From Polaromonas sp. (GTDB lineage: Bacteria; Pseudomonadota; Gammaproteobacteria; Burkholderiales; Burkholderiaceae_C): 64,000 nt of DNA. Shown piece by piece: positions 12,301 through 59,135 of this stretch; the stretch's first letter is position 1, and each line of letters opens with the position of its first letter. The notes beneath the pieces were generated by a model. The model ran no database searches, had not been told where the DNA came from, and worked only from the letters and a program-made list of their open reading frames with translations. The stretch is from contig NZ_JAQSDA010000025.1 of assembly GCF_029945685.1 (NCBI RefSeq), positions 248,001 to 312,000 of the forward strand, written 5' to 3'. The position numbers and the translations under genes are program-made.

Positions 12301-13354
12301 CAAGGGTGAGCTCGGTTCGCAGGCACGCGGCGCCTTCCAGGCGCTGGCCGGGCTGAAGGCACGCCCGGCGCCGCAGGAACGCCAGGATGCAGAGTCAAAT
12401 CGGCCTCAAGCCCAACAGGGGCGGGCGCAAGCAGCTCCTGAAAGCATAGCAAGTGAGAAGGTGCAGCCAGTCCGCACGCCGGAGCGTTACACCAGCTGGA
12501 GTTTTGGCGAGCTGCCCGAACTGATGGAAATCAGCAAAGGCAAGCAGACCTTGATCGGTTTTCCGGCGCTGATCGATCTTGGCGATGCGGTGACCATCGA
12601 GGTGTTCGACGAGCCCGACGTGGCCGCGGCGAAACACCGGGCCGGACTGCGGCGCCTGTTTTCGCTGCAGATCAAGGATGCGCTGAAGTACCTGGAAAAG
12701 AATTTGCCCGACCTGCAGAAAATGGCCACCAGCTACATGCTGGTGGGCCGTGCGGCCGACAACTCGGGCGGCGGCACGCTGGAGGAACTGCGCGAGCAGA
12801 TCATCGAAGTGGCGCTGGACCGTGCCTTTTTGCTGGAGCCGCTGCCGACCAACGAAGCCGACTTCAAAAAGCGCATCGACGACGGGCGCGGACGCCTGAC
12901 GCTGATTGCCAGCGAAGTCGCGCGGCTGGCGGCCGGCATCCTGGTCGAGTTTGCCGCGGCGCAGCGCAAGATCAAGGACACCAAAAATGCCGCGGAGGCC
13001 AGCGCGGATGCGGCGCAGCAGCTGCAGCGTCTGGTGCCCAAACGTTTCCTGACGGCGACGCCGTACACGCAGCTGCAGCACTTTCCGCGTTACCTCAAGG
13101 CCATCACGCTGCGGCTGGAGAAATGGCGCGCCGACCCGGCCCGCGATGCGGCCCGGCTCGCCGAGCTGCGGCCGCAGGAGCAGCGCTACTGGCGCCTGGT
13201 GGCCGAGCGCAAGGGTGCCACCGATGCGCGGCTGCAGGAACTGCGCTGGCTGCTTGAAGAGCTGCGCGTCAGCTTTTTTGCGCAGGAGCTGCGCACGCCG
13301 CAGCCGGTCAGCATCAAGCGGATTGAAAAAGCCTGGCTTCAACTGGTGGGTTGA
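9338..13354 (+). CDS. hrpA: ATP-dependent RNA helicase HrpA (DEAH box)
   Basis: 1338 aa, slightly longer than usual for HrpA. Walker A GETGSGKTTQ is at residues 48-57, DEAH at about 152, SATIDAQRF follows, and motif VI is NQRAGRCGRVADG; the long C-terminal DUF3418 region follows. HrpA helicases act on ribosome-bound mRNA and stalled ribosomes. Two repeat elements are translated inside it: a PSPQPSP-type inverted repeat at about residues 531-557 and an E60 copy at about 1020-1038; both keep the frame. The start is GTG at 9338, but GATAAT lies two bases before it, so a later start such as GTG 9380 is possible. Confidence 0.96.
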   Translation: MVLSPIPLSSPPLSVPLQIDFPESLPVSGKREEITAAIAAHQVVIVCGETGSGKTTQLPKIALAMGRGKLNYPAGQGKLIGHTQPRRIAASSVAKRIAEELKTPLGDVVGYKVRFQDRLSRDASVKLMTDGILLAETQTDPLLKAYDTIIIDEAHERSLNIDFLLGYLRQLLPRRPDLKVVITSATIDAQRFADYFASSKGPAPVILVSGRMFPVEQRYRPYEESRDYDLNDAIADGVDELWRNPHSAGDILIFLPGEREIREAADHLRKHLAHQPLFRNAEVLPLFARLSQAEQDRIFDGHTGRRIVLATNVAETSLTVPGIRYVIDAGTARVKRYSFRNKVEQLMVEPVSQAAANQRAGRCGRVADGICIRLYDEQDFLGRPRFTDPEILRSSLAAVILRMKALHLGTIESFAFIEPPQGRAIADGYQLLAELGAVDDDNELTPVGRNLARLPLDPRVGRMILEAKERQALDEVLVIASALSVQDVRDRPMDKQAQADQAHAKFDDEKSEFSGYLKLWKWLGDARGGRPSPQPSPGGRGSREVLLPRPLGEGGGEGTASHKLSNRQYENLLRENYINIRRVREWRDIHSQLHAVVGEQKWVLNDKPASYEQLHLSMLCGLLGNLGIKNEEDDWYLGARGIKFYRHPGAKLSKKPGRWIVAAELVETTRLFGRGIANIEPQWVEQVAGHLLKKQLLDPHWEKKAAQVTALERATLYGLVIYNGRRVNFGRVDPVTAREIFIREALVAGNWDTKLPFLQANLKLIEQVQDLEHKARRQDVLVDEELIYAFYDQQLPADICTGAGCEHWYKDEVKKQPQLLLLSREELMRHEAAGITTQAFPKTLRLGGVDCIATYLHEPGDARDGVTVDVPLFALNQVNEERCEWLVPGMLKDKVQALIKTLHQRPRSRLVPLPDTAARMATDLLQPEKFGAGSLTDAVLKLVRDTTSLDIKRGDMKIDMLAPHLFMNFRVVDEHGRQLGTGRNLGALKGELGSQARGAFQALAGLKARPAPQERQDAESNRPQAQQGRAQAAPESIASEKVQPVRTPERYTSWSFGELPELMEISKGKQTLIGFPALIDLGDAVTIEVFDEPDVAAAKHRAGLRRLFSLQIKDALKYLEKNLPDLQKMATSYMLVGRAADNSGGGTLEELREQIIEVALDRAFLLEPLPTNEADFKKRIDDGRGRLTLIASEVARLAAGILVEFAAAQRKIKDTKNAAEASADAAQQLQRLVPKRFLTATPYTQLQHFPRYLKAITLRLEKWRADPARDAARLAELRPQEQRYWRLVAERKGATDARLQELRWLLEELRVSFFAQELRTPQPVSIKRIEKAWLQLVG
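10928..11010. repeat. PSPQPSP-type inverted repeat inside hrpA
   Basis: An 83-bp palindromic element with perfect 10-bp ends (CCCTCACCCC ... GGGGTGAGGG) and an internal hairpin CCCTCTCCC-GGC-GGGAGAGGG. It is translated in hrpA as PSPQPSPGGRGSREVLLPRP. Elements of this type are common between genes in many proteobacteria and often give such Pro/Ser/Gly-rich peptides; here it is in-frame within an essential-looking fold. Confidence 0.85.
12395..12452 (-). repeat. E60 dispersed element inside hrpA
   Basis: Plus strand reads TCAAATCGGCCTCAAGCCC, then GGGCGGGCGCAAGCAGCT and a degenerate TATCAAA end. It is in-frame in hrpA and encodes RPQAQQGRAQAAPESIA. The RAQAA stretch is shared with the copy in truB. 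Confidence 0.8.
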
Positions 13355-13497
13355 GGCGAGGCTTTTCAGCGCAGGCTGACAACTGCCCGCAGGGCTTGTC
13401 ATGCCGTAGCTAAAAAGCCTGGCTTCAACTGGTGGGTTGAGGCGAGGCTTTTCAGCGCAGGCTGACAACTGCCCGCAGGGCTTGTCATGCCGTAGCT
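13326..13497 (+). repeat. 86-bp tandem duplication of the hrpA 3' end
   Basis: Two perfect 86-bp copies (13326-13411 and 13412-13497), each starting AAAAAGCCTGGCTTCAACTG. The first holds the last codons and stop of hrpA (KAWLQLVG). A partial third copy (AAAGCCTGG) follows. Each copy contains the hairpin GACAA-ct-GCCC-gca-GGGC-TTGTC, which could act as a 3' mRNA end structure, although no T-run follows. Confidence 0.9.
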
Positions 13498-23967: not shown

Positions 23968-24066
23968 TAGGTGAGACGACGTGCGCAGCGCAGGGCCGCC
24001 CCAAGCAAGCACAGCCCCCTCGGGGGGCAGCGTAGTACACGTAGTGACAAGCATGGGGGTCATCAA
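23968..24066 (-). repeat. C/G-rich dispersed element, copy 1
   Basis: On the minus strand it reads TGACCCCCATGCTTG..., ACGCTGCCCCCCGAGGGGGC, TTGGGGCGGCCC. It is closely similar to the element at 34.8 kb and related to those at 33.7 and 45.2 kb. It fills the gap between the SPFH and DUF2237 genes. Confidence 0.8.
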
Positions 24067-29806: not shown

Positions 29807-29835
29807 GCAGCCGGTTCAGCACGGCTATGCTCACA

Positions 29836-29890
29836 TTTTAATAGCTGTTGTCGCCCGTGCATCAAGGGCTGAAGCCATATTTGGCTTCAA
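29836..29890 (+). repeat. E60 dispersed element, complete copy
   Basis: TTTTAATAGCTGTTGTCGCC, then CGTGCATCAAGGGCTGAAGCC and ATATTTGGCTTCAAA. One of the best-preserved intergenic copies in plus orientation, lying between the convergent GNAT and fabI genes. Confidence 0.88.
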
Positions 29891-34831: not shown

Positions 34832-36540
34832 CGGCCCCCACGCTCCGCACTGACGTGTCGTCGCTGCCCCCCGAGGGGGCTGAACTTGCTCGGGGCGGCC
34901 CTTCGCCGCGTTCGACGGCCCCCACGCCCGGCACGGAGGTGTCCTGTCTTCTTGAGGTCAAGAATCTGCGCGTGTCCTTCGCCGGCAAGGAGGTTGTGCG
35001 CGGCATCGACTTTTCCATCCAGCCCGGTGAAAAACTCGCGCTGGTCGGGGAGTCGGGCTCCGGAAAAACCGTCACCGCACTGAGCCTGCTGCGCCTCGTG
35101 CAGAACGCTGCCATCAGCGGCAAGGCGACCTTCGCCGGACATGACGGGGCTGTCGACCTGCTGTCCCTGCCCGAGCGGGCCTTGCGCGGTATCCGCGGCC
35201 AGGACATCGCGATGATTTTCCAGGAGCCGATGACGGCCCTGAACCCGCTGTTCACCGTGGGTGAGCAGATTGCCGAAGTCCTGCAGCTGAAAAAGGCCCT
35301 GACGCCCGCCGAATCTGCGCAGGCAGCTATTAAATTGCTAGCGGATACCGGCATCCCCGAGGCCGCCCGGCGTGCGGGCTCCTACCCGCACCAGCTCTCG
35401 GGCGGCCAGCGCCAGCGCGCCATGATTGCCATGGCGCTGGCCTGTCAGCCCAAATTGTTGCTGGCCGACGAGCCGACCACGGCGCTGGATGTCACGCTGC
35501 GCACGCAGATCCTGGACCTGCTGACCGGGCTGCAGCAGCGCAACGGCATGGCGGTGCTCCTGATCACCCACGACCTGAACCTGGTTCGGCGCTTTGCCGA
35601 CCGCATTGCCGTGATGGAGGACGGGCGCATTGTGGAGACCGGGCCGGTGGCGCAGGTGTTCGAGCAGCCGCAGCATGCCTACACCCGCAAACTGATCGAC
35701 AGCCGGCCGGCACGCGATGTGGTGGAGCGCCGGGTTGACCCGGCCGCCGCCGCGGTGCTGCAGGCCCGGGACCTGCGGGTGACGTACCCGCTGCCGATTC
35801 CCGGGGTGCGCGGCTGGTTTCGCAAGGGCGAGTTTGTGGCACTCCATGGCGCCAGTTTCCAGGTCCCCGCCGGCCAGACCCTGGGGGTGATCGGGGAGTC
35901 CGGGTCGGGCAAATCCACGCTGGCCCTGGCCGCGCTGGGCCTGCATCCGCACCAGGGGCAGCTGCTGGCGGCGGGCCAGGCCTGGAGCGGCGATGCGGCC
36001 GCCAACAAACGTATCCGCCGCGCGGTGCAGGTGGTGTTCCAGGACCCGTTTTCCTCGCTCTCGCCGCGCATGACGGTCGAGGAAATTGTCGGGGAAGGCC
36101 TGCGCGTGCACGAGCCGGGGCTGTCCGCCGGCCAGCGGCGTGAGCGGGTGCTGCAGGCGCTGGCGGAGGTGGGCATGGGCGAGACGCAGTTTCCGGGGTT
36201 GTTACAGCGTTATCCGCACGAGTTTTCCGGGGGCCAGCGCCAGCGCCTGGCGATTGCCCGGGCCCTGATCATCCAGCCCCAATTGCTGGTGCTGGACGAA
36301 CCGACCAGCGCCCTGGACGTGACGATCCAGAAACAGGTGCTTCAGCTGCTGCAAAAACTCCAGCGCGAGCATGGCCTGAGCTACCTGTTGATCACCCACG
36401 ACGTGGACGTGATCCGGGCCATGGCGCACCAGGTCATGGTGCTCAAGGACGGCGAGGTGCTGGAAGCCGGCAGCGTGGACGAGGTGCTGGAGCGGCCGCA
36501 GCATCCTTACACCCAGACCCTGGTGGCGGCACAAGGCTGA
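34828..36540 (+). CDS. yejF: Peptide ABC transporter duplicated ATPase YejF
   Basis: 570 aa starting in the yejE stop (ATGA); the ORF track starts inside yejE. Two ATPase halves: Walker A GESGSGKTVTAL and GESGSGKSTLALAA, signatures LSGGQRQRAMIAMAL and FSGGQRQRLAIARAL, Walker B LLLADEPTTALD and LLVLDEPTSALD. The first ~40 residues (TAPTLRTDVSSLPPEGAELA...) are translated from a C/G-rich repeat and precede the true start of homology, LLEVKNLRVSFAGKE. A partial E60 copy underlies SAQAAIKLLA near residue 167. Confidence 0.94.
   Translation: MTAPTLRTDVSSLPPEGAELARGGPSPRSTAPTPGTEVSCLLEVKNLRVSFAGKEVVRGIDFSIQPGEKLALVGESGSGKTVTALSLLRLVQNAAISGKATFAGHDGAVDLLSLPERALRGIRGQDIAMIFQEPMTALNPLFTVGEQIAEVLQLKKALTPAESAQAAIKLLADTGIPEAARRAGSYPHQLSGGQRQRAMIAMALACQPKLLLADEPTTALDVTLRTQILDLLTGLQQRNGMAVLLITHDLNLVRRFADRIAVMEDGRIVETGPVAQVFEQPQHAYTRKLIDSRPARDVVERRVDPAAAAVLQARDLRVTYPLPIPGVRGWFRKGEFVALHGASFQVPAGQTLGVIGESGSGKSTLALAALGLHPHQGQLLAAGQAWSGDAAANKRIRRAVQVVFQDPFSSLSPRMTVEEIVGEGLRVHEPGLSAGQRRERVLQALAEVGMGETQFPGLLQRYPHEFSGGQRQRLAIARALIIQPQLLVLDEPTSALDVTIQKQVLQLLQKLQREHGLSYLLITHDVDVIRAMAHQVMVLKDGEVLEAGSVDEVLERPQHPYTQTLVAAQG
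34832..34944 (+). repeat. C/G-rich dispersed element translated as the YejF N-terminus, copy 3
   Basis: GGCCCCCACGCTCCGCACTG, CGCTGCCCCCCGAGGGGGCT, CTCGGGGCGGCCC, closely matching the copy at 24.0 kb. An imperfect direct repeat flanks the core (ACGGCCCCCACGCTCCGCAC and ACGGCCCCCACGCCCGGCAC), encoding TAPTLRTDVS and TAPTPGTEVS. Confidence 0.8.
35317..35342 (-). repeat. Possible E60 remnant inside yejF
   Basis: GCGCAGGCAGCTATTAAATT followed by GCTAGC. It matches the GCGC..GCAGCTAT..A..TAGC core of E60 in the same frame as the truB copy (AQAAIK), but is short enough to be chance. Confidence 0.4.
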
Positions 36541-42344: not shown

Positions 42345-43361
42345 ATGACGCAAACTTCTCCTCATCGCCAAAAGATACAGCGCCGTCCCGTGCATGGCGT
42401 GTTGTTGCTCGACAAGCCGCTGGGCCTGTCGAGCAATCAGGCCTTGCAGAAAGCGAAGTGGCTGCTGCGTGCGGACAAGGCCGGTCATACCGGCACGCTG
42501 GACCCGCTGGCGACCGGCGTGTTGCCCCTGTGTTTCGGCGCGGCCACCAAGTTCAGCCAGTTGCAGCTCGACGCCGACAAGACCTACGAAGCCGTGCTGC
42601 TGCTGGGCCAGAAAACCAGTACCGCCGATGCCGAAGGCGAGGTGATTGAAACGCGCCCGGTTCCGGCCATCACTTTGGCGCTGCTGGACGAGTTGACGCG
42701 TCGTTTCACCGGGTCGCAAACCCAGGTCCCGCCCATGTATTCGGCCCTGAAGAAGGATGGCAAGGCGCTGTACGAATATGCGCGCAAGGGCCAGGACGTG
42801 GAGCGGGAAGCCCGTCACATCACCATTTACAAGCTGAATATGGCTCCGGCCCTTGATCCACGGGCGCAAGCAGCTATCAAAATCATAGTGTCGTGCAGCA
42901 AGGGTACCTACATCCGCACGCTCGGCGAGGACATCGGCGAGGCCATCGGCTGCGGCGCCCACCTGGGCTCGCTGCGGCGGCTGGAGACCGGCGGTTACAC
43001 CGACCGCCAGTGCGTGAGTCTGCCTGTGCTCGAAGCCATGAGCGAGGCCGAACGTGAGGCCTGTTTGCTGCCGGTGCAGTCGCTGGTGGCCGCTTTTCCG
43101 TCTGTCACATTGGACGCCGATGATGCAGGGCGCTTCCTGAGCGGCCTGCGTCGCCGCGGCAGCCCGGGCCAGTGGGGGCCTGACGCCGCGCTGGTGCAGG
43201 TCTTCGGGTCTGATCCTGCGGCTTTCCTGGGCTCGGCCCATGTCACCGCCGATGAATTGATCCCCGGGCGCCTGCTCAGCCCGATTGAAATCCAGGACAT
43301 GCTGATTGCCTGCCCGTCCCCCTCTTCCAGCCCTGCGGCGCCTGCCGCACTGGCCCATTAA
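42345..43361 (+). CDS. truB: tRNA pseudouridine(55) synthase TruB
   Basis: 338 aa. VHGVLLLDKPLGLSSNQALQ, and the catalytic Asp 53 in GHTGTLDPLATGVLPLC; the YxA motif appears as ADKTYEAVLLLG; CSKGTYIRTLGEDIG is the late conserved block. It makes pseudouridine 55 in the T loop of tRNAs. Residues ~166-182 (APALDPRAQAAIKIIV) are encoded by an E60 element placed just before CSKGTYIR, so a beta-strand of the family has been built from repeat sequence. The C-terminal PUA-like region is short and Pro/Ala-rich. Confidence 0.96.
   Translation: MTQTSPHRQKIQRRPVHGVLLLDKPLGLSSNQALQKAKWLLRADKAGHTGTLDPLATGVLPLCFGAATKFSQLQLDADKTYEAVLLLGQKTSTADAEGEVIETRPVPAITLALLDELTRRFTGSQTQVPPMYSALKKDGKALYEYARKGQDVEREARHITIYKLNMAPALDPRAQAAIKIIVSCSKGTYIRTLGEDIGEAIGCGAHLGSLRRLETGGYTDRQCVSLPVLEAMSEAEREACLLPVQSLVAAFPSVTLDADDAGRFLSGLRRRGSPGQWGPDAALVQVFGSDPAAFLGSAHVTADELIPGRLLSPIEIQDMLIACPSPSSSPAAPAALAH
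42841..42890 (-). repeat. E60 dispersed element inside truB
   Basis: TGGCTCCGGCCCTTGATCCA followed by CGGGCGCAAGCAGCTATC and AAAATCATAG. Complete copy, in frame, encoding APALDPRAQAAIKII. Confidence 0.9.
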
Positions 43362-43396: not shown

Positions 43397-45220
<1,824 letters not shown>

Positions 45221-45221
45221 G

Positions 45222-45320
45222 CCCCCACGTTCGCTCATTTCCTGTAGCTCTCTGCCCCCCGGGGGGGCGCTGCGCCTGCGGGCTGGCAAAGCCAGTCCCG
45301 CGGCCCCGGCGGGCATGAAG
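45222..45320 (+). repeat. C/G-rich dispersed element after typA, copy 4
   Basis: CCCCCACGTTCGCTCATTTC, CTCTGCCCCCCGGGGGGGCG, then GCGGGCTGGCAAAGCCAGTC. Same layout as the yejB-yejE copy. It lies between the typA stop and its terminator. Confidence 0.8.
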
Positions 45321-45357
45321 TCGGGGAGGGCGGCGACAGGGTTGAGCGCCTGAACAC

Positions 45358-45391
45358 GGCCGCTGTGCGCTTCGCTCCCAGCGGCCTTTTT
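45358..45391 (+). terminator. Intrinsic terminator after typA
   Basis: GGCCGCTG ... CAGCGGCC, a perfect 8-bp stem, followed by TTTTT. It ends the typA transcript before the EamA transporter gene. Confidence 0.85.
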
Positions 45392-45429
45392 ACTTTGTAC
45401 AGGGATGTCCGTCCGAAACTCTTGCAATC

Positions 45430-46314
45430 ATGAAACTCACGCATTCCAGAGCCGTCCTCCTGATGATCGCCATCACGCTGATGTGGTCGATCGCCGGGGT
45501 GGTGACGCGCCATCTTGAATCGGCCCGCAGTTTTGAAGTGACCTTCTGGCGCAGTTTTTTCACGCTGCTGTCCTTGCTGGTCCTGCTGCCGCTGTTCCAG
45601 GGACGCGCGGTGTTCTCCAGAATCCGCCATGCGGGCCGCTTCCTGTGGCTGTCGGGGGTCTGCTGGAGCATCATGTTCACTGCCTTCATGCTGGCGCTGA
45701 CCATGACCAGTGTGGCCAATGTGCTGGTCACCATGGCGCTCGGGCCTTTCCTGACCGCGCTGATCGCCCGGGTGTTCATCGGCCACCGGATCGCGCCCCG
45801 CACCTGGTTCGCGATTGCCGTGGCCGGCGTGGGCATTGCCTGGATGTACGGCAGCCAGCTCAGCTTGGGCGGCGGTATCGCGCAGTTCGCCGGCACGCTG
45901 GTGGCCTTGCTGGTGCCCATGGCCGCGGCCGTGAACTGGACGGTGGTGCAGCGCAGCCAGGCGCATGGCGAAAGAATCGACCTGGTGCCGGCCGTGCTGG
46001 TGGGCGCCGCGATTTCTTCGCTGCTCACGCTGCCGCTGGCGTTTCCGTTTGTGGCGACGCCGCACGACATCGGCCTGCTGGCCCTGCTGGGCCTGGTCCA
46101 GCTGGCGATCCCCTGCGTGCTGTCGGTGGTCTGTGCCCGGGTGCTGAAGGCGCCCGAGATGGCCTTGCTGGCGCTGCTGGAGATCATTTTCGGCATTCTG
46201 CTGGCCTGGGCCGGCGCGGGCGAGGTGCCGGCGGCCAGTGTGCTGACCGGTGGCCTGCTGGTTATCGGGGCGCTGGTGGCCAATGAATTGATGGGATGGA
46301 GACAAAGAGCATGA
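45430..46314 (+). CDS. DMT superfamily (EamA) transporter
   Basis: 294 aa, about ten hydrophobic helices in two EamA repeats: LLMIAITLMWSIAGVVTRHL starts the first and LVALLVPMAAAVNWTVVQRS the second; ALLALLEIIFGILLAWAGAG is the usual C-terminal motif. Inner-membrane metabolite exporter of unknown substrate. It overlaps the next gene by four bases (ATGA), linking it to a 3-hydroxyisobutyryl-CoA hydrolase; this suggests, but does not show, a branched-chain amino acid related export role. Confidence 0.92.
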   Translation: MKLTHSRAVLLMIAITLMWSIAGVVTRHLESARSFEVTFWRSFFTLLSLLVLLPLFQGRAVFSRIRHAGRFLWLSGVCWSIMFTAFMLALTMTSVANVLVTMALGPFLTALIARVFIGHRIAPRTWFAIAVAGVGIAWMYGSQLSLGGGIAQFAGTLVALLVPMAAAVNWTVVQRSQAHGERIDLVPAVLVGAAISSLLTLPLAFPFVATPHDIGLLALLGLVQLAIPCVLSVVCARVLKAPEMALLALLEIIFGILLAWAGAGEVPAASVLTGGLLVIGALVANELMGWRQRA

Positions 46315-47447
46315 ACCAGACAACAACACACACACCGGCCCACAGCGAGATCCTGACCGAGGTGCGCGGGCGGGTCGGCTTCATCACGCTGAACCGGCCC
46401 AAGGCGCTCAATGCGCTGTCGCTGTCCATGGTGCGCGAGCTGGCGGCAACGCTGACGGCATGGCGCGATGACGCGGCCGTGGTGGCCGTGGCCATTCGCG
46501 GGACCAACAAGGCGGGGCGTCCCGGCACGCCGGAGAGCCTGTTCGGCGGATTTTGCGCCGGCGGCGACATCCGCTTTTTTCACCAGGCCGCGCTCGCCGG
46601 CGACACGGGCCTGGACGCGTTTTTCACCGAGGAATACCGCCTCAACCACCTGATCCACAACTATCCCAAACCCTACATTGCCTTCATGGACGGTGTGGTG
46701 ATGGGCGGTGGCATGGGAATCAGTGTCGGTGCCAGCGTCCGCATCGTGACCGAACACACCAGGATGGCCATGCCGGAAACCAACATCGGGTTGTTTCCCG
46801 ATGTCGGCGGTGGCTACTTCCTGAGCCGCTGCCCGGGCAGTGTGGGGGAGTACCTAGCGTTGACCGGGGTGGTGATTGGTGCGGACGAGGCGCTCGCCTA
46901 CGGCCTGGCCGACATCGAGCGGCCCGCTGCCAGCCTGCCGGGTCTGTGGCAGCAGCTGGGGGATCAGGCCTTTTCCGATGTTTCCGCGGCCGAGTTATGG
47001 ATTGCTACTAATTTTGTAGCTGGTGGCGCCCGTCGTGAAAGGGCTGAGGGCAGATTTGATGCTTGTTTTTCGCTGGCCCGGGTGAAACACATCGTCGATG
47101 CCCTGGAAGCCGCGAAGGACGACGACTGGGCGCAAAAGACCGCTGTCGTGCTGCGCAAACGCTCACCGCTGATGCTGCATGTGACCCTGGAGCAGATCCG
47201 CCGCGCCCGCAGCATGAGCCTGGCGGACGATCTGCGCATGGAGCGCGACATGGTGCACCACTGCTTCCACCTCCGCCCAGGCGCGGCCGGCGAAACGGTC
47301 GAGGGCATACGCGCACTGGCCGTCGACAAGGACTACACGCCGAAGTGGAACCCGGCCCGCATTGAAGACGTCAAGCCGCAGATGGTGCAGGCGTTTTTCG
47401 CCAGTCCCTGGGCGGCCGACGCGCATCCCCTTCGCGACCTCCAGTGA
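46311..47447 (+). CDS. 3-hydroxyisobutyryl-CoA hydrolase (enoyl-CoA hydratase/isomerase fold)
   Basis: 378 aa from the ATG overlapping the transporter stop; GGAG lies ten bases before. Crotonase core: VGFITLNRPKALNALSLSMV, FCAGGDIRFFHQ (oxyanion hole), MDGVVMGGGMGISVGASVRI, MPETNIGLFPDVGGGYFLSR with the catalytic Glu/Asp pair of the hydrolase type, and a long C-terminal half. Likely valine catabolism. An E60 copy is translated at about residues 230-250 (IATNFVAGGARRERAEGRFD). Confidence 0.92.
   Translation: MNQTTTHTPAHSEILTEVRGRVGFITLNRPKALNALSLSMVRELAATLTAWRDDAAVVAVAIRGTNKAGRPGTPESLFGGFCAGGDIRFFHQAALAGDTGLDAFFTEEYRLNHLIHNYPKPYIAFMDGVVMGGGMGISVGASVRIVTEHTRMAMPETNIGLFPDVGGGYFLSRCPGSVGEYLALTGVVIGADEALAYGLADIERPAASLPGLWQQLGDQAFSDVSAAELWIATNFVAGGARRERAEGRFDACFSLARVKHIVDALEAAKDDDWAQKTAVVLRKRSPLMLHVTLEQIRRARSMSLADDLRMERDMVHHCFHLRPGAAGETVEGIRALAVDKDYTPKWNPARIEDVKPQMVQAFFASPWAADAHPLRDLQ
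47001..47063 (+). repeat. E60 dispersed element inside the 3-hydroxyisobutyryl-CoA hydrolase gene
   Basis: ATTGCTACTAATTTTGTAGC, TGGTGGCGCCCGTCGTGAAA, GGGCTGAGGGCAGATTTGA. Complete copy in plus orientation, in frame; its peptide IATNFVAGGAR parallels IATKSIAGGAW in the LD-carboxypeptidase. Confidence 0.88.
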
Positions 47448-54604: not shown

Positions 54605-54730
54605 CGCGGGGCCGAGCCGCTGCGCGTCCCGGGCCATTGCGGCCCGATAATGGCCGGCTGTTGCGCCCAGCCGCATGACCCTGATCCGCGCAATACTTCG
54701 GTATTCAGTTAGATTCCTCCGGTTTGATCC

Positions 54731-55738
54731 ATGCTTCCTGCGCCTTTTCCCCTCAATGAAACTGAGCGCCTGCAGGCGCTCAGAGCGGGCTTCTGCGCCT
54801 ATGCTCCGCGTGAAGAGCGCTTTGATCGCATCACCCGCACTGCCAGGCGACTCTTGCACGTGCCGATCGCGCTGATTTCCATCATCGAGCAGGACGAGCA
54901 ATGGTTCCGTTCGGTGCAGGGCCTGGAAGTGGCGCACACGCCCAGGGATATTTCCTTTTGTGGCCATGTGGTGGCCATGAATCAGTCTTTTTGCATTCAG
55001 GATGCATTGAACGACCCGGACTTTTCCGATAACCCGCTGGTGACCGGTCCGCCGGGCATACGCGCCTACCTGGGCTGGCCACTTGAAATTGCCCCCGGTA
55101 TTGCTGTGGGCTCCTTGTGCGTGATCGACACCATGCCGCGCACCTTCGACCGGGAAGACTACGCTGCCCTGTCGGACCTGGCGAGCATAGCGGCAGCGGA
55201 GCTGAAGATCAACGCCATGTCCAGCTTGCAGAACAAGCTGCTGATGCAGCTCAGCGCCTTGCAGCGTCAGGGCGCACTTGACCCGCTGACCGGCTGCTGG
55301 AATATTCGCGGGTTCAGGCAGTTGCTGACCCTTGGCGTCGAAGATGCCCGCAAACAGGGCACCGATCTGGCGCTGTGTCACCTGCATGTGGACAACCTGA
55401 CCGAGGTGGCAAACGCAGCCGGATACGCCAACCATGATGCGGTGACGCTCATGCTGGCCCAGGTGTTGCGGCGGCGGCTGCCGGATCATGGCGCGCTTGC
55501 GCGTCTGGGCCCGCAGGACTTCTGTGCGATCGTTCCCTCGCCTTCTGCGCTGGACTTGGAGCAGGAACTCGCCCGGCTGACCTTCCCCAGTGTGACCGTG
55601 GACTTGCCAAGCGCCAAGCTGAAGCTGGACATGGCGCTGAAGGTTCAGGTTGCCTGGCTCGCAGAGTTCGGACCTGGCGCCACACCCGACAGCCTGTGGG
55701 CGCATGTGCTTGCAGCATCCAGAGCGGGGGTTCGATAA
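54731..55738 (+). CDS. GAF domain protein with degenerate GGDEF domain
   Basis: 335 aa. N-terminal GAF domain (LLHVPIALISIIEQDEQWFR, RDISFCGHVVAMNQSFCIQD, YLGWPLEIAPGIAVGSLCVI), then a GGDEF-like domain beginning DPLTGCWNIRGFRQLL. The signature position reads RLGPQDFCAIVPSP instead of RxGGDEFxxL, so diguanylate cyclase activity is doubtful. Cytoplasmic. The second inactive-looking GGDEF protein in the window. Alone between guaA and the PaiB-like gene. Confidence 0.82.
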   Translation: MLPAPFPLNETERLQALRAGFCAYAPREERFDRITRTARRLLHVPIALISIIEQDEQWFRSVQGLEVAHTPRDISFCGHVVAMNQSFCIQDALNDPDFSDNPLVTGPPGIRAYLGWPLEIAPGIAVGSLCVIDTMPRTFDREDYAALSDLASIAAAELKINAMSSLQNKLLMQLSALQRQGALDPLTGCWNIRGFRQLLTLGVEDARKQGTDLALCHLHVDNLTEVANAAGYANHDAVTLMLAQVLRRRLPDHGALARLGPQDFCAIVPSPSALDLEQELARLTFPSVTVDLPSAKLKLDMALKVQVAWLAEFGPGATPDSLWAHVLAASRAGVR

Positions 55739-55790
55739 CGCCGGAATGGCTTCAGATTCGGGCTGCAGGTTTTGTACGATACTCCGGCCT

Positions 55791-56676: not shown

Positions 56677-56736
56677 TCAAATCGGGCTCTGGCCCTTGTG
56701 ATAATTGCGCAAGCTGCTATTAAAAACGAAGCAATC
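56677..56736 (-). repeat. E60 dispersed element forming the leader of the tadA fusion gene
   Basis: TCAAATCGGGCTCTGGCCCT, then TTGCGCAAGCTGCTATTAAA and AACGAAGCAATC. Complete copy filling the whole gap between the small membrane gene and the TadA-dehalogenase ATG. Confidence 0.88.
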
Positions 56737-58184: not shown

Positions 58185-59135
58185 GTGAAAAAACATATCT
58201 ACATCTACTCCCCCTCCAGCGCCGTGCGCGACAAGGCTGCTTTCAAGCGCGGCGTGCGGCGCCTGACCGCGCTGGGTTACGAGGTCGAGCTTGACGAGGC
58301 CGCGCTGAGCAGCTACCAGCGTTTTGCCGGCGACGACGAAACCCGGCTGGCCGCGATCGCCCGGGCGGCCGCCAGCGGTGCCGATGTGGCGTTGATCTCC
58401 CGGGGCGGCTACGGCCTGACACGCCTGCTGCCGCATATCAACTACAAGGCGCTGGACAAGGCCGTGTCCCGGGGAACGCGTTTTGTCGGCCTGAGCGATT
58501 TCACGGCCCTGCAAAATGCGCTGCTGGCCAAAACCGGGGCAGTGACCTGGGCCGGTCCGGCACTCGGCGAGGACTTCGGAACCGAAGGCCAGCCGGACGA
58601 CATCATGGAAGCCTGCTTTGACGACCTGATCACAAGGCAGGGCGAAGGCACCGGCTGGCGGCTGCCGAAAATTGCTACGAAATCAATAGCTGGCGGCGCT
58701 TGGCAGGCGGGGGCTGACGGCCAATTTGGCGTGAAGAATGCAGTGTTATGGGGCGGCAACCTTGCGGTGCTGAGTTCGCTCGTGGGCACCCCTTACCTGC
58801 CTGAGGTGAAGGGTGGCATTCTGTTTCTGGAAGAGGTGCATGAACACCCGTACCGGCTGGAGCGCATGTTGACACAGCTGCTGCACGCTGGCGTGCTGGC
58901 GCGGCAGAAGGCGGTGGTGCTGGGGCAGTTCACCAACTACAAGCTCGTGCCGCACGACAAGGGGTTCAAGCTGGCCACGGTGGTGGCGTGGTTGCAGCGC
59001 CAGATCAAGGCGCCGGTGCTCAGTGGGCTGCCTTTTGGTCATGTGCCGACCAAGGTGGTGTTGCCGGTGGGAGAGAAAGTGACACTGGCCGTAGAGGACC
59101 GGGATGCTTTCCTTCTCTGGGGTCACAGCCATTGA
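58185..59135 (+). CDS. ldcA: LD-carboxypeptidase (S66 family)
   Basis: 316 aa from the GTG at 58185 (VKKHIYIYSPSSAVRDKAAF); the ORF track starts far inside the previous gene. S66 features: LISRGGYGLTRLLPHINY, nucleophile Ser 104 in FVGLSDFTALQ, Glu in LFLEEVHEHPYRLERML and His in GLPFGHVPTKVVLPVG. It trims the terminal D-Ala of murein tetrapeptides in recycling. An E60 copy is translated at about residues 162-181 (KIATKSIAGGAWQAGADGQF), just before VKNAVLWGGNL. GATACT lies close upstream of the GTG. Confidence 0.93.
   Translation: MKKHIYIYSPSSAVRDKAAFKRGVRRLTALGYEVELDEAALSSYQRFAGDDETRLAAIARAAASGADVALISRGGYGLTRLLPHINYKALDKAVSRGTRFVGLSDFTALQNALLAKTGAVTWAGPALGEDFGTEGQPDDIMEACFDDLITRQGEGTGWRLPKIATKSIAGGAWQAGADGQFGVKNAVLWGGNLAVLSSLVGTPYLPEVKGGILFLEEVHEHPYRLERMLTQLLHAGVLARQKAVVLGQFTNYKLVPHDKGFKLATVVAWLQRQIKAPVLSGLPFGHVPTKVVLPVGEKVTLAVEDRDAFLLWGHSH
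58670..58731 (+). repeat. E60 dispersed element inside ldcA
   Basis: AATTGCTACGAAATCAATAG, CTGGCGGCGCTTGG, GGGGGCTGACGGCCAATTTG. Complete copy in plus orientation, in the same frame as the 3-hydroxyisobutyryl-CoA hydrolase copy. Confidence 0.88.

Follow-up and report, generated by a model that had tools for sequence, protein, structure and literature searches.

The question raised by this locus is why two unrelated enzymes, encoded in the same 64,000-nucleotide stretch of Polaromonas DNA (hereafter the window), carry the same short peptide. The two genes, and the copies of the DNA element, here termed E60, that lie within them, are as follows:

58185-59135, plus strand: ldcA-like gene for an S66 muramoyltetrapeptide (LD-) carboxypeptidase, GTG start
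58673-58726, plus strand: E60 copy in ldcA, 35.3 bits, encoding ATKSIAGGAWQAGADGQF
46296-47447, plus strand: 3-hydroxyisobutyryl-CoA hydrolase gene (NF004127, 463.9 bits; PF16113)
47003-47056, plus strand: E60 copy in the hydrolase gene, 44.1 bits, encoding ATNFVAGGARRERAEGRF

The product of ldcA, whose close orthologues belong to Polaromonas, was identified as an S66 LD-carboxypeptidase and its translation includes LPKIATKSIAGGAWQAGADGQFGVK; that of the second gene was identified as a 3-hydroxyisobutyryl-CoA hydrolase and includes LWIATNFVAGGARRERAEGRFDACF. A preliminary description of the window held that the shared residues, IATKSIAGGAWQAGADGQFG in LdcA and IATNFVAGGARRERAEGRFD in the hydrolase, stem from one DNA element read in one frame and orientation rather than from any homology between the enzymes, and this is borne out by the profile of the genomic family, which recovers both copies at the scores given above. 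The same description placed the element before a conserved block, at a likely surface loop. In both proteins it does occupy a variable linker in front of such a block, namely the linker between the N- and C-terminal S66 Pfam domains (124 and 187) in LdcA, and the segment preceding the conserved I-D-x-C-F in the hydrolase. The remark on the surface loop fits LdcA, where the AlphaFold model assigns a pLDDT below 50 to residues 170-179, which directly precede the strand (181-192) holding LWGGNL.

Number, anatomy, and taxonomic range of E60

E60 is a degenerate motif of 54 bp whose parts keep a fixed spacing, GCTA...ATAGCTG...GCGC...AGGGCT...G.C..TT; its conserved blocks GCTA, an AT-rich block, ATAGCTG, GCGC, AGGGCT, G.C, and TT are spread over 54 columns with a total information content of about 56 bits. 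About eleven copies lie within the window; besides the two in ldcA and the hydrolase gene, these and the gene truB are:

42390-43361, plus strand: truB, tRNA pseudouridine(55) synthase (TIGR00431)
42837-42890, minus strand: E60 in truB, on the strand opposite to the gene, 46.7 bits, encoding NMAPALDPRAQAAIKII
35290-35343, minus strand: E60 in a predicted ABC-transporter ATPase-like gene (LTPAESAQAAIKLLADTGIP), 25.3 bits
16859-16912, minus strand: E60 with conserved 5' part in a small predicted gene (AATDLIAAGARQIRV; CbiX-like by eye), 33.2 bits
12398-12451, minus strand: E60 in the opposite frame in a long predicted ORF, 33.9 bits
28906-28959, minus strand: E60 in a predicted gene, 23.0 bits
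3362-3413, minus strand: E60 near a gene end, 33.9 bits
14404-14457, minus strand: E60 classed as intergenic, 47.1 bits, occupied in 3 relatives
29828-29881, plus strand: E60 classed as intergenic, 37.7 bits, occupied in 4 relatives
56680-56733, minus strand: E60 directly upstream of an ATG (~56738), 36.9 bits

The window holds other irregularities as well. An inverted repeat pair different from E60 (23977-24032 and 34862-34917; CCCCCTCGGGGGGCAGCG...) is 86% complementary over 56 nt and is possibly a betaproteobacterial repeat of the BRE type. Positions 13326-13497 form a perfect 86-bp tandem duplication, at which the alignment to the relative G325 breaks as if a single copy were present there. 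At 45216-45429 the alignments to the relatives G349, G303, and G354 break, with ~65 nt there against ~213 here, an excess of ~150 bp that lies here between two genes. At 54609-55770 the alignment to the covering close relatives is broken or shorter, which likely marks a lineage-specific segment.

An iterated profile, built on the copies of the window and searched in 2.0 Mb of the same Polaromonas genome at E<=0.01, returned 306 copies, against two matches in the reversed-sequence control, both at E>0.7; extrapolated to 4.74 Mb, this gives an estimated ~720 copies per genome. Across the whole genome the core ATAGCTGCTTGCGC was matched 423 times with at most two mismatches, versus 40 times for the reversed pattern, and 108 versus 0 times with no or one mismatch, so that E60 displays the genome-wide over-representation characteristic of uptake signals of the USS/DUS type. 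Its range is narrow: among 300 genomes of the order, a clear excess is confined to the same family, where 4 of the 9 sampled genomes show it, the present one included. Within the genus the count (core, at most one mismatch) runs from 0 to 347, several near-complete congeners being nearly devoid of the motif. An E60-like sequence also lies under an annotated cobN on a plasmid of Diaphorobacter, another genus of the family (NZ_CP049911.1:107821-107876).

The architecture of the motif is rigid, with almost no indels among copies: the AGGGCT block sits at its expected offset in 237 copies, is displaced by one position in 4 and by more in 14, and could not be scored in 51. Columns 28-38, between conserved blocks, are fully variable, which bears on the idea that dispersed copies are homogenised among themselves by RecA-type gene conversion or short-homology recombination, with no part for uptake. 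Such in-place replacement without indels would look alike, but conversion tracts would be expected to homogenise the variable columns too, and we therefore consider this explanation improbable.

E60 forms over existing sequence

The preliminary description took the shared peptides for inserts, and it is here that the orthologues tell against it. The comparison was made gene by gene and covers part of the coding copies, those in PurK, TruB, the hydrolase, an acyl-CoA synthetase, and LdcA. PurK carries a 44-bit copy, and its alignment to a solved PurK has no gap at the site, whose length is equal in 29 family orthologue loci save one with four additional residues. The TruB site can be aligned across 30 orthologue loci of the family, which show one gap column of a single residue and one deletion of the same size; relative to Escherichia coli it is four residues longer. 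At these same two sites E60 is present in full or in part in some other genera and lacking in others, the patchiness that formation and decay of the motif in place would be expected to produce. The PurK and TruB copies also show that loops ahead of a conserved block are not the only places in which E60 occurs.

The hydrolase linker is of similar length in orthologues from ~28 other genera of the family (one longer by two to three residues, a few others by two to four). The same holds for 18 orthologues taken from other families of the class, which lack the peptide; the finding that the preliminary description named as its refutation, these residues in orthologues from outside the family, was thus not made among them. 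In LdcA there is no 18-residue step between loops with and without the element, for those with E60 measure 29 residues in 12 of 19 cases and those without it most often 25 (24 of 59) or 29 (13 of 59). Among genus orthologues of the acyl-CoA synthetase the loop is mostly equal with and without E60, with several longer ones on both sides; against paralogues it had looked longer by 11 to 14 residues at the E60 site. TilS exceeds two solved homologues by four to six residues at its E60 site, and the copy at 35290-35343 is mostly length-neutral relative to paralogues. An acyl-CoA synthetase (L165:12271-14121, minus strand) carries at residues ~250-276 a segment, SPHPHPLPQAGEGADSSLSLGERAGVRED, that looks like another in-frame inserted repeat: the matches of several congeners end on either side of it, which, unlike E60, resembles a real insertion.

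At every conserved gene examined, then, the orthologue lengths fit formation in place, and since proteins that carry E60 are nearly as long as those that lack it, the element arises over codons already present. E60 forms by substitution over existing sequence and not as an inserted cassette, and this conclusion is much firmer than the claim concerning uptake made below. The contrary view takes E60 for a small mobile element, palindromic or MITE-like, that inserts in the manner of Rickettsia palindromic elements (RPEs), and the shared peptides for inserted cassettes; it can draw on the high copy number, the two orientations, the intergenic enrichment, the in-frame coding copies, the lineage-specific abundance, and the 6 to 14 additional residues found at the site in some paralogue comparisons. 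It has to contend with the little or no length difference among orthologues of PurK, TruB, the hydrolase, and the acyl-CoA synthetase, with the near absence of indels among copies, and with the low-GC depletion and short-range avoidance described in the next section. Moreover, no empty site was found in five close relatives, every comparable window site being occupied, and the sole E60-free relative at an intergenic site is shorter in a manner that, judged by eye, is unlike a clean 54-bp excision. We consider insertion improbable as well. For mobilisation as a REP element by a RAYT transposase, the genome offers one candidate, a Y1_Tnp (RAYT-like) transposase ORF (G000:C14:37356-37682, L211).

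Once formed, the motif is maintained. In copies classed as intergenic and compared between species at three sites, one of which adjoins a start codon, and in ten pairwise comparisons, the conserved columns differ at 9 of 250 positions (3.6%), as opposed to 152 of 1100 in the flanks (13.8%) and 34 of 120 in the variable columns (28.3%), with Fisher p=8e-7 against the flanks and p=3e-11 against the low-information columns.

Genomic placement, reading frames, and strand

The 306 copies comprise 171 intergenic ones, 101 within predicted genes, and 34 at the edges of genes, classes that come, outside the window, from a home-made codon-model gene caller whose genes are annotated where they were tested, so that counts and edge assignments are approximate; 33% lie inside genes as compared with ~86% of the sequence being coding. 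Inside genes, 75 of the 101 copies are read in one of two frames: co-oriented copies use one frame in 30 of 43 cases (A-T-x-x-I-A-x-G-A-R...) and counter-oriented copies one frame in 45 of 58 (A-P-A-L-x-x-R-A-Q-A-A-I-K-x-I-A), these being the two frames that E60 leaves free of stop codons. At a fixed codon of the motif isoleucine is written ATA in 42 of 42 copies, against 3.7% of the isoleucines of the genome. Therefore the constraint acts on the DNA, with the reservation that the copies were found by DNA similarity. Some copies seem to write the hydrophobic part or the lipobox (LLATSFIAGCAS) of putative signal peptides (G000 C8:53783-53836, C27:210821-211114, and C27:103390-104289).

Placement between genes is uneven. 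Convergent gaps hold 85 of the 204 gene-gap copies (42%), and make up 163 of the 1028 gaps of at least 54 bp (16%; p=5e-15); in tandem gaps the median distance of E60 from the stop codon upstream of it is 21 nt. Both observations would suit a structured RNA acting at gene ends as a terminator or stability element, whose coding copies are tolerated. The 306 copies yielded, however, neither an RNAalifold consensus structure nor base-pair covariation, no Rfam match was found at any E60 site within the window, both orientations are equally common, and 101 copies lie inside predicted genes. On the strength of the missing Rfam matches and covariation we rejected E60 as an RNA element, a reading to which we would assign a very low probability, the lowest among the explanations weighed here.

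The two strands carry 153 copies each, and a weak bias emerges when they are oriented by GC skew (127:179, p=0.003). Copies avoid one another at short range: no pair lies less than 300 bp apart where ~28 would be expected, and 21 pairs fall within 1 kb where 60 would be expected. Density drops to 0.82 per 10 kb in the lowest-GC fifth of the genome, versus 1.59-1.90 elsewhere. With low GC as a proxy for acquired DNA, E60 therefore has the lack of orientation bias, the preference for non-coding DNA, and the scarcity in acquired DNA that mark USS/DUS-type signals. A 51-kb stretch free of E60 (G000:C3:183487-234454) has 56.6% GC, compared with 63.5% in the genome sample, and is probably acquired DNA.

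What builds and keeps the motif

That E60 is driven by DNA uptake is our inference, as is the identity of the protein that would read the motif. The most likely reading, to which we give a probability of roughly 45%, is that transformation-driven molecular drive spreads E60 as an uptake-signal-like motif in Polaromonas and related Comamonadaceae. A pilus receptor would prefer DNA bearing E60; a fragment carrying it, once taken up, would recombine at the homologous locus; and a better motif would thereby replace a poorer one, a molecular drive by sequence-biased natural transformation. The motif keeps to intergenic and permissive coding sites. Formation in place, which E60 has in common with the uptake signals of Haemophilus and Neisseria, suggests that a further bacterial group may tag its own DNA. 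The fuller claim, that Comamonadaceae evolved a 54-bp multi-block DNA uptake sequence independently of Haemophilus and Neisseria, one that would have reshaped the sequence at hundreds of sites between and within genes, and with it short stretches of many unrelated proteins, is put forward more tentatively.

The genome encodes ComEC as well as a pilin of the ComP_DUS Pfam family (L154:13428-14021; 79-81 bits; 80.9 and 79.4), a candidate receptor of the motif, whose gene follows pilV/pilW/pilX/pilY1-like genes, named by reading. Both ComEC and the ComP-family pilin are near-universal in the genus, E60-poor congeners included; their presence therefore does not predict E60 number, and as a predictor we set it aside as uninformative. 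A search of an open library found no literature concerned, by title, with natural competence in Polaromonas. Against the uptake reading count an information content of ~56 bits, far more than it takes to single out sites in a genome of this size, a length exceeding that of known uptake sequences, the swing in copy number within the genus, and the weak strand bias by GC skew. So do the short-range avoidance and the enrichment between convergent genes, in both of which E60 departs from what is described for known uptake sequences.

The main rival, which we regard as unlikely, though less so than the other alternatives, is that E60 is the binding site of a candidate chromosomal protein engaged in nucleoid organisation, segregation, replication, or repair, such that selection for one site every several kilobases would build and keep the motif in place, coding sequence included. 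Conserved blocks at fixed spacing over 54 bp, the high information content together with the conservation of intergenic-classed copies, the avoidance between neighbouring copies, and formation in place would all follow from it, and known uptake sequences are less evenly spaced than chromosome-compacting sequences should be (PMC1939737). It is weakened by the near absence of E60 from several near-complete congeners and by the lack of any dyad symmetry seen by eye, and the strand balance speaks against a replication-polar motif.

Should the uptake reading be correct, E60 would be a further independent case of the repeated evolution of self-recognising uptake signals, and would provide both a long multi-block motif for comparison with those of 9-12 bp and a new pair for the study of pilin-DNA recognition. 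Even if uptake is not the cause, a motif that forms in place in hundreds of copies dictates near-identical peptides in unrelated enzymes. E60 thus shows that drive or selection at the DNA level can shape proteins, and it serves as a warning that peptides common to unrelated proteins need not mean inserts or homology.

Comparison with known systems

RPEs are additional, inserted segments that have a palindromic fold. E60 resembles them as a dispersed repeat found in frame, and in preferred frames, within many unrelated protein genes; it differs in the little or no length difference seen in orthologue sets and in the lack of covariation. An RPE or MITE model is accordingly disfavoured, as copies lengthen the host sequence little or not at all in the sets examined and no conserved palindromic fold was found.

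The BRE is a small repeat described from Polaromonas, Rhodoferax, Acidovorax, and others, mostly intergenic with some coding copies (Hot et al. 2011, PMC3110155); it is present in Bordetella, where it averages 69% GC, and is ~90 bp long, often in tandem, with at most 29 copies (PMC3110155). Compared by description, E60 is instead 54 bp long with an A+T-rich 5' part, occurs in hundreds of copies never less than 300 bp apart, and is absent above background outside its own family. We rejected their identity on length, arrangement and spacing, and taxonomic range. The enterobacterial RU/ERIC repeats are small repeats also found in frame inside annotated genes, 103-168 bp long, MITE-like, and described as mobile (Delihas 2007, PMC2759123). 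E60 is like them in lying in frame inside genes, and is shorter and shows no evidence of mobility. An open-library search found no paper on uptake sequences, palindromic elements, or interspersed repeats in Comamonadaceae.

Known uptake sequences measure 9-12 bp. E60, by contrast, spans 54 bp with five conserved blocks and ~56 bits, and is both longer and more degenerate. Self-recognising uptake signals have been described in two families only, the Pasteurellaceae and Neisseriaceae (PMC7811141), and E60 would place a proposed one in another family, with a copy number that varies from 0 to 347 in a single genus. The distribution within gaps differs too: uptake sites in H. influenzae are often clustered, 23% lying within 100 bp of another (PMC7811141), and Bakkali reported uptake sequences without bias downstream of coding sequences (PMC1939737), unlike the short-range avoidance of E60 and its enrichment between convergent genes. 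The likenesses are nonetheless several. USS/DUS occur as hundreds or more of interspersed copies without strand polarity, many of them in genes though enriched outside, arise in place by substitution, and are underrepresented in newly acquired DNA (PMC1939737, PMC7811141); E60 matches them in abundance, strand balance, non-coding enrichment with many copies in genes, in-place substitution, and scarcity at low GC, and a ComP-family pilin is encoded in its genome.
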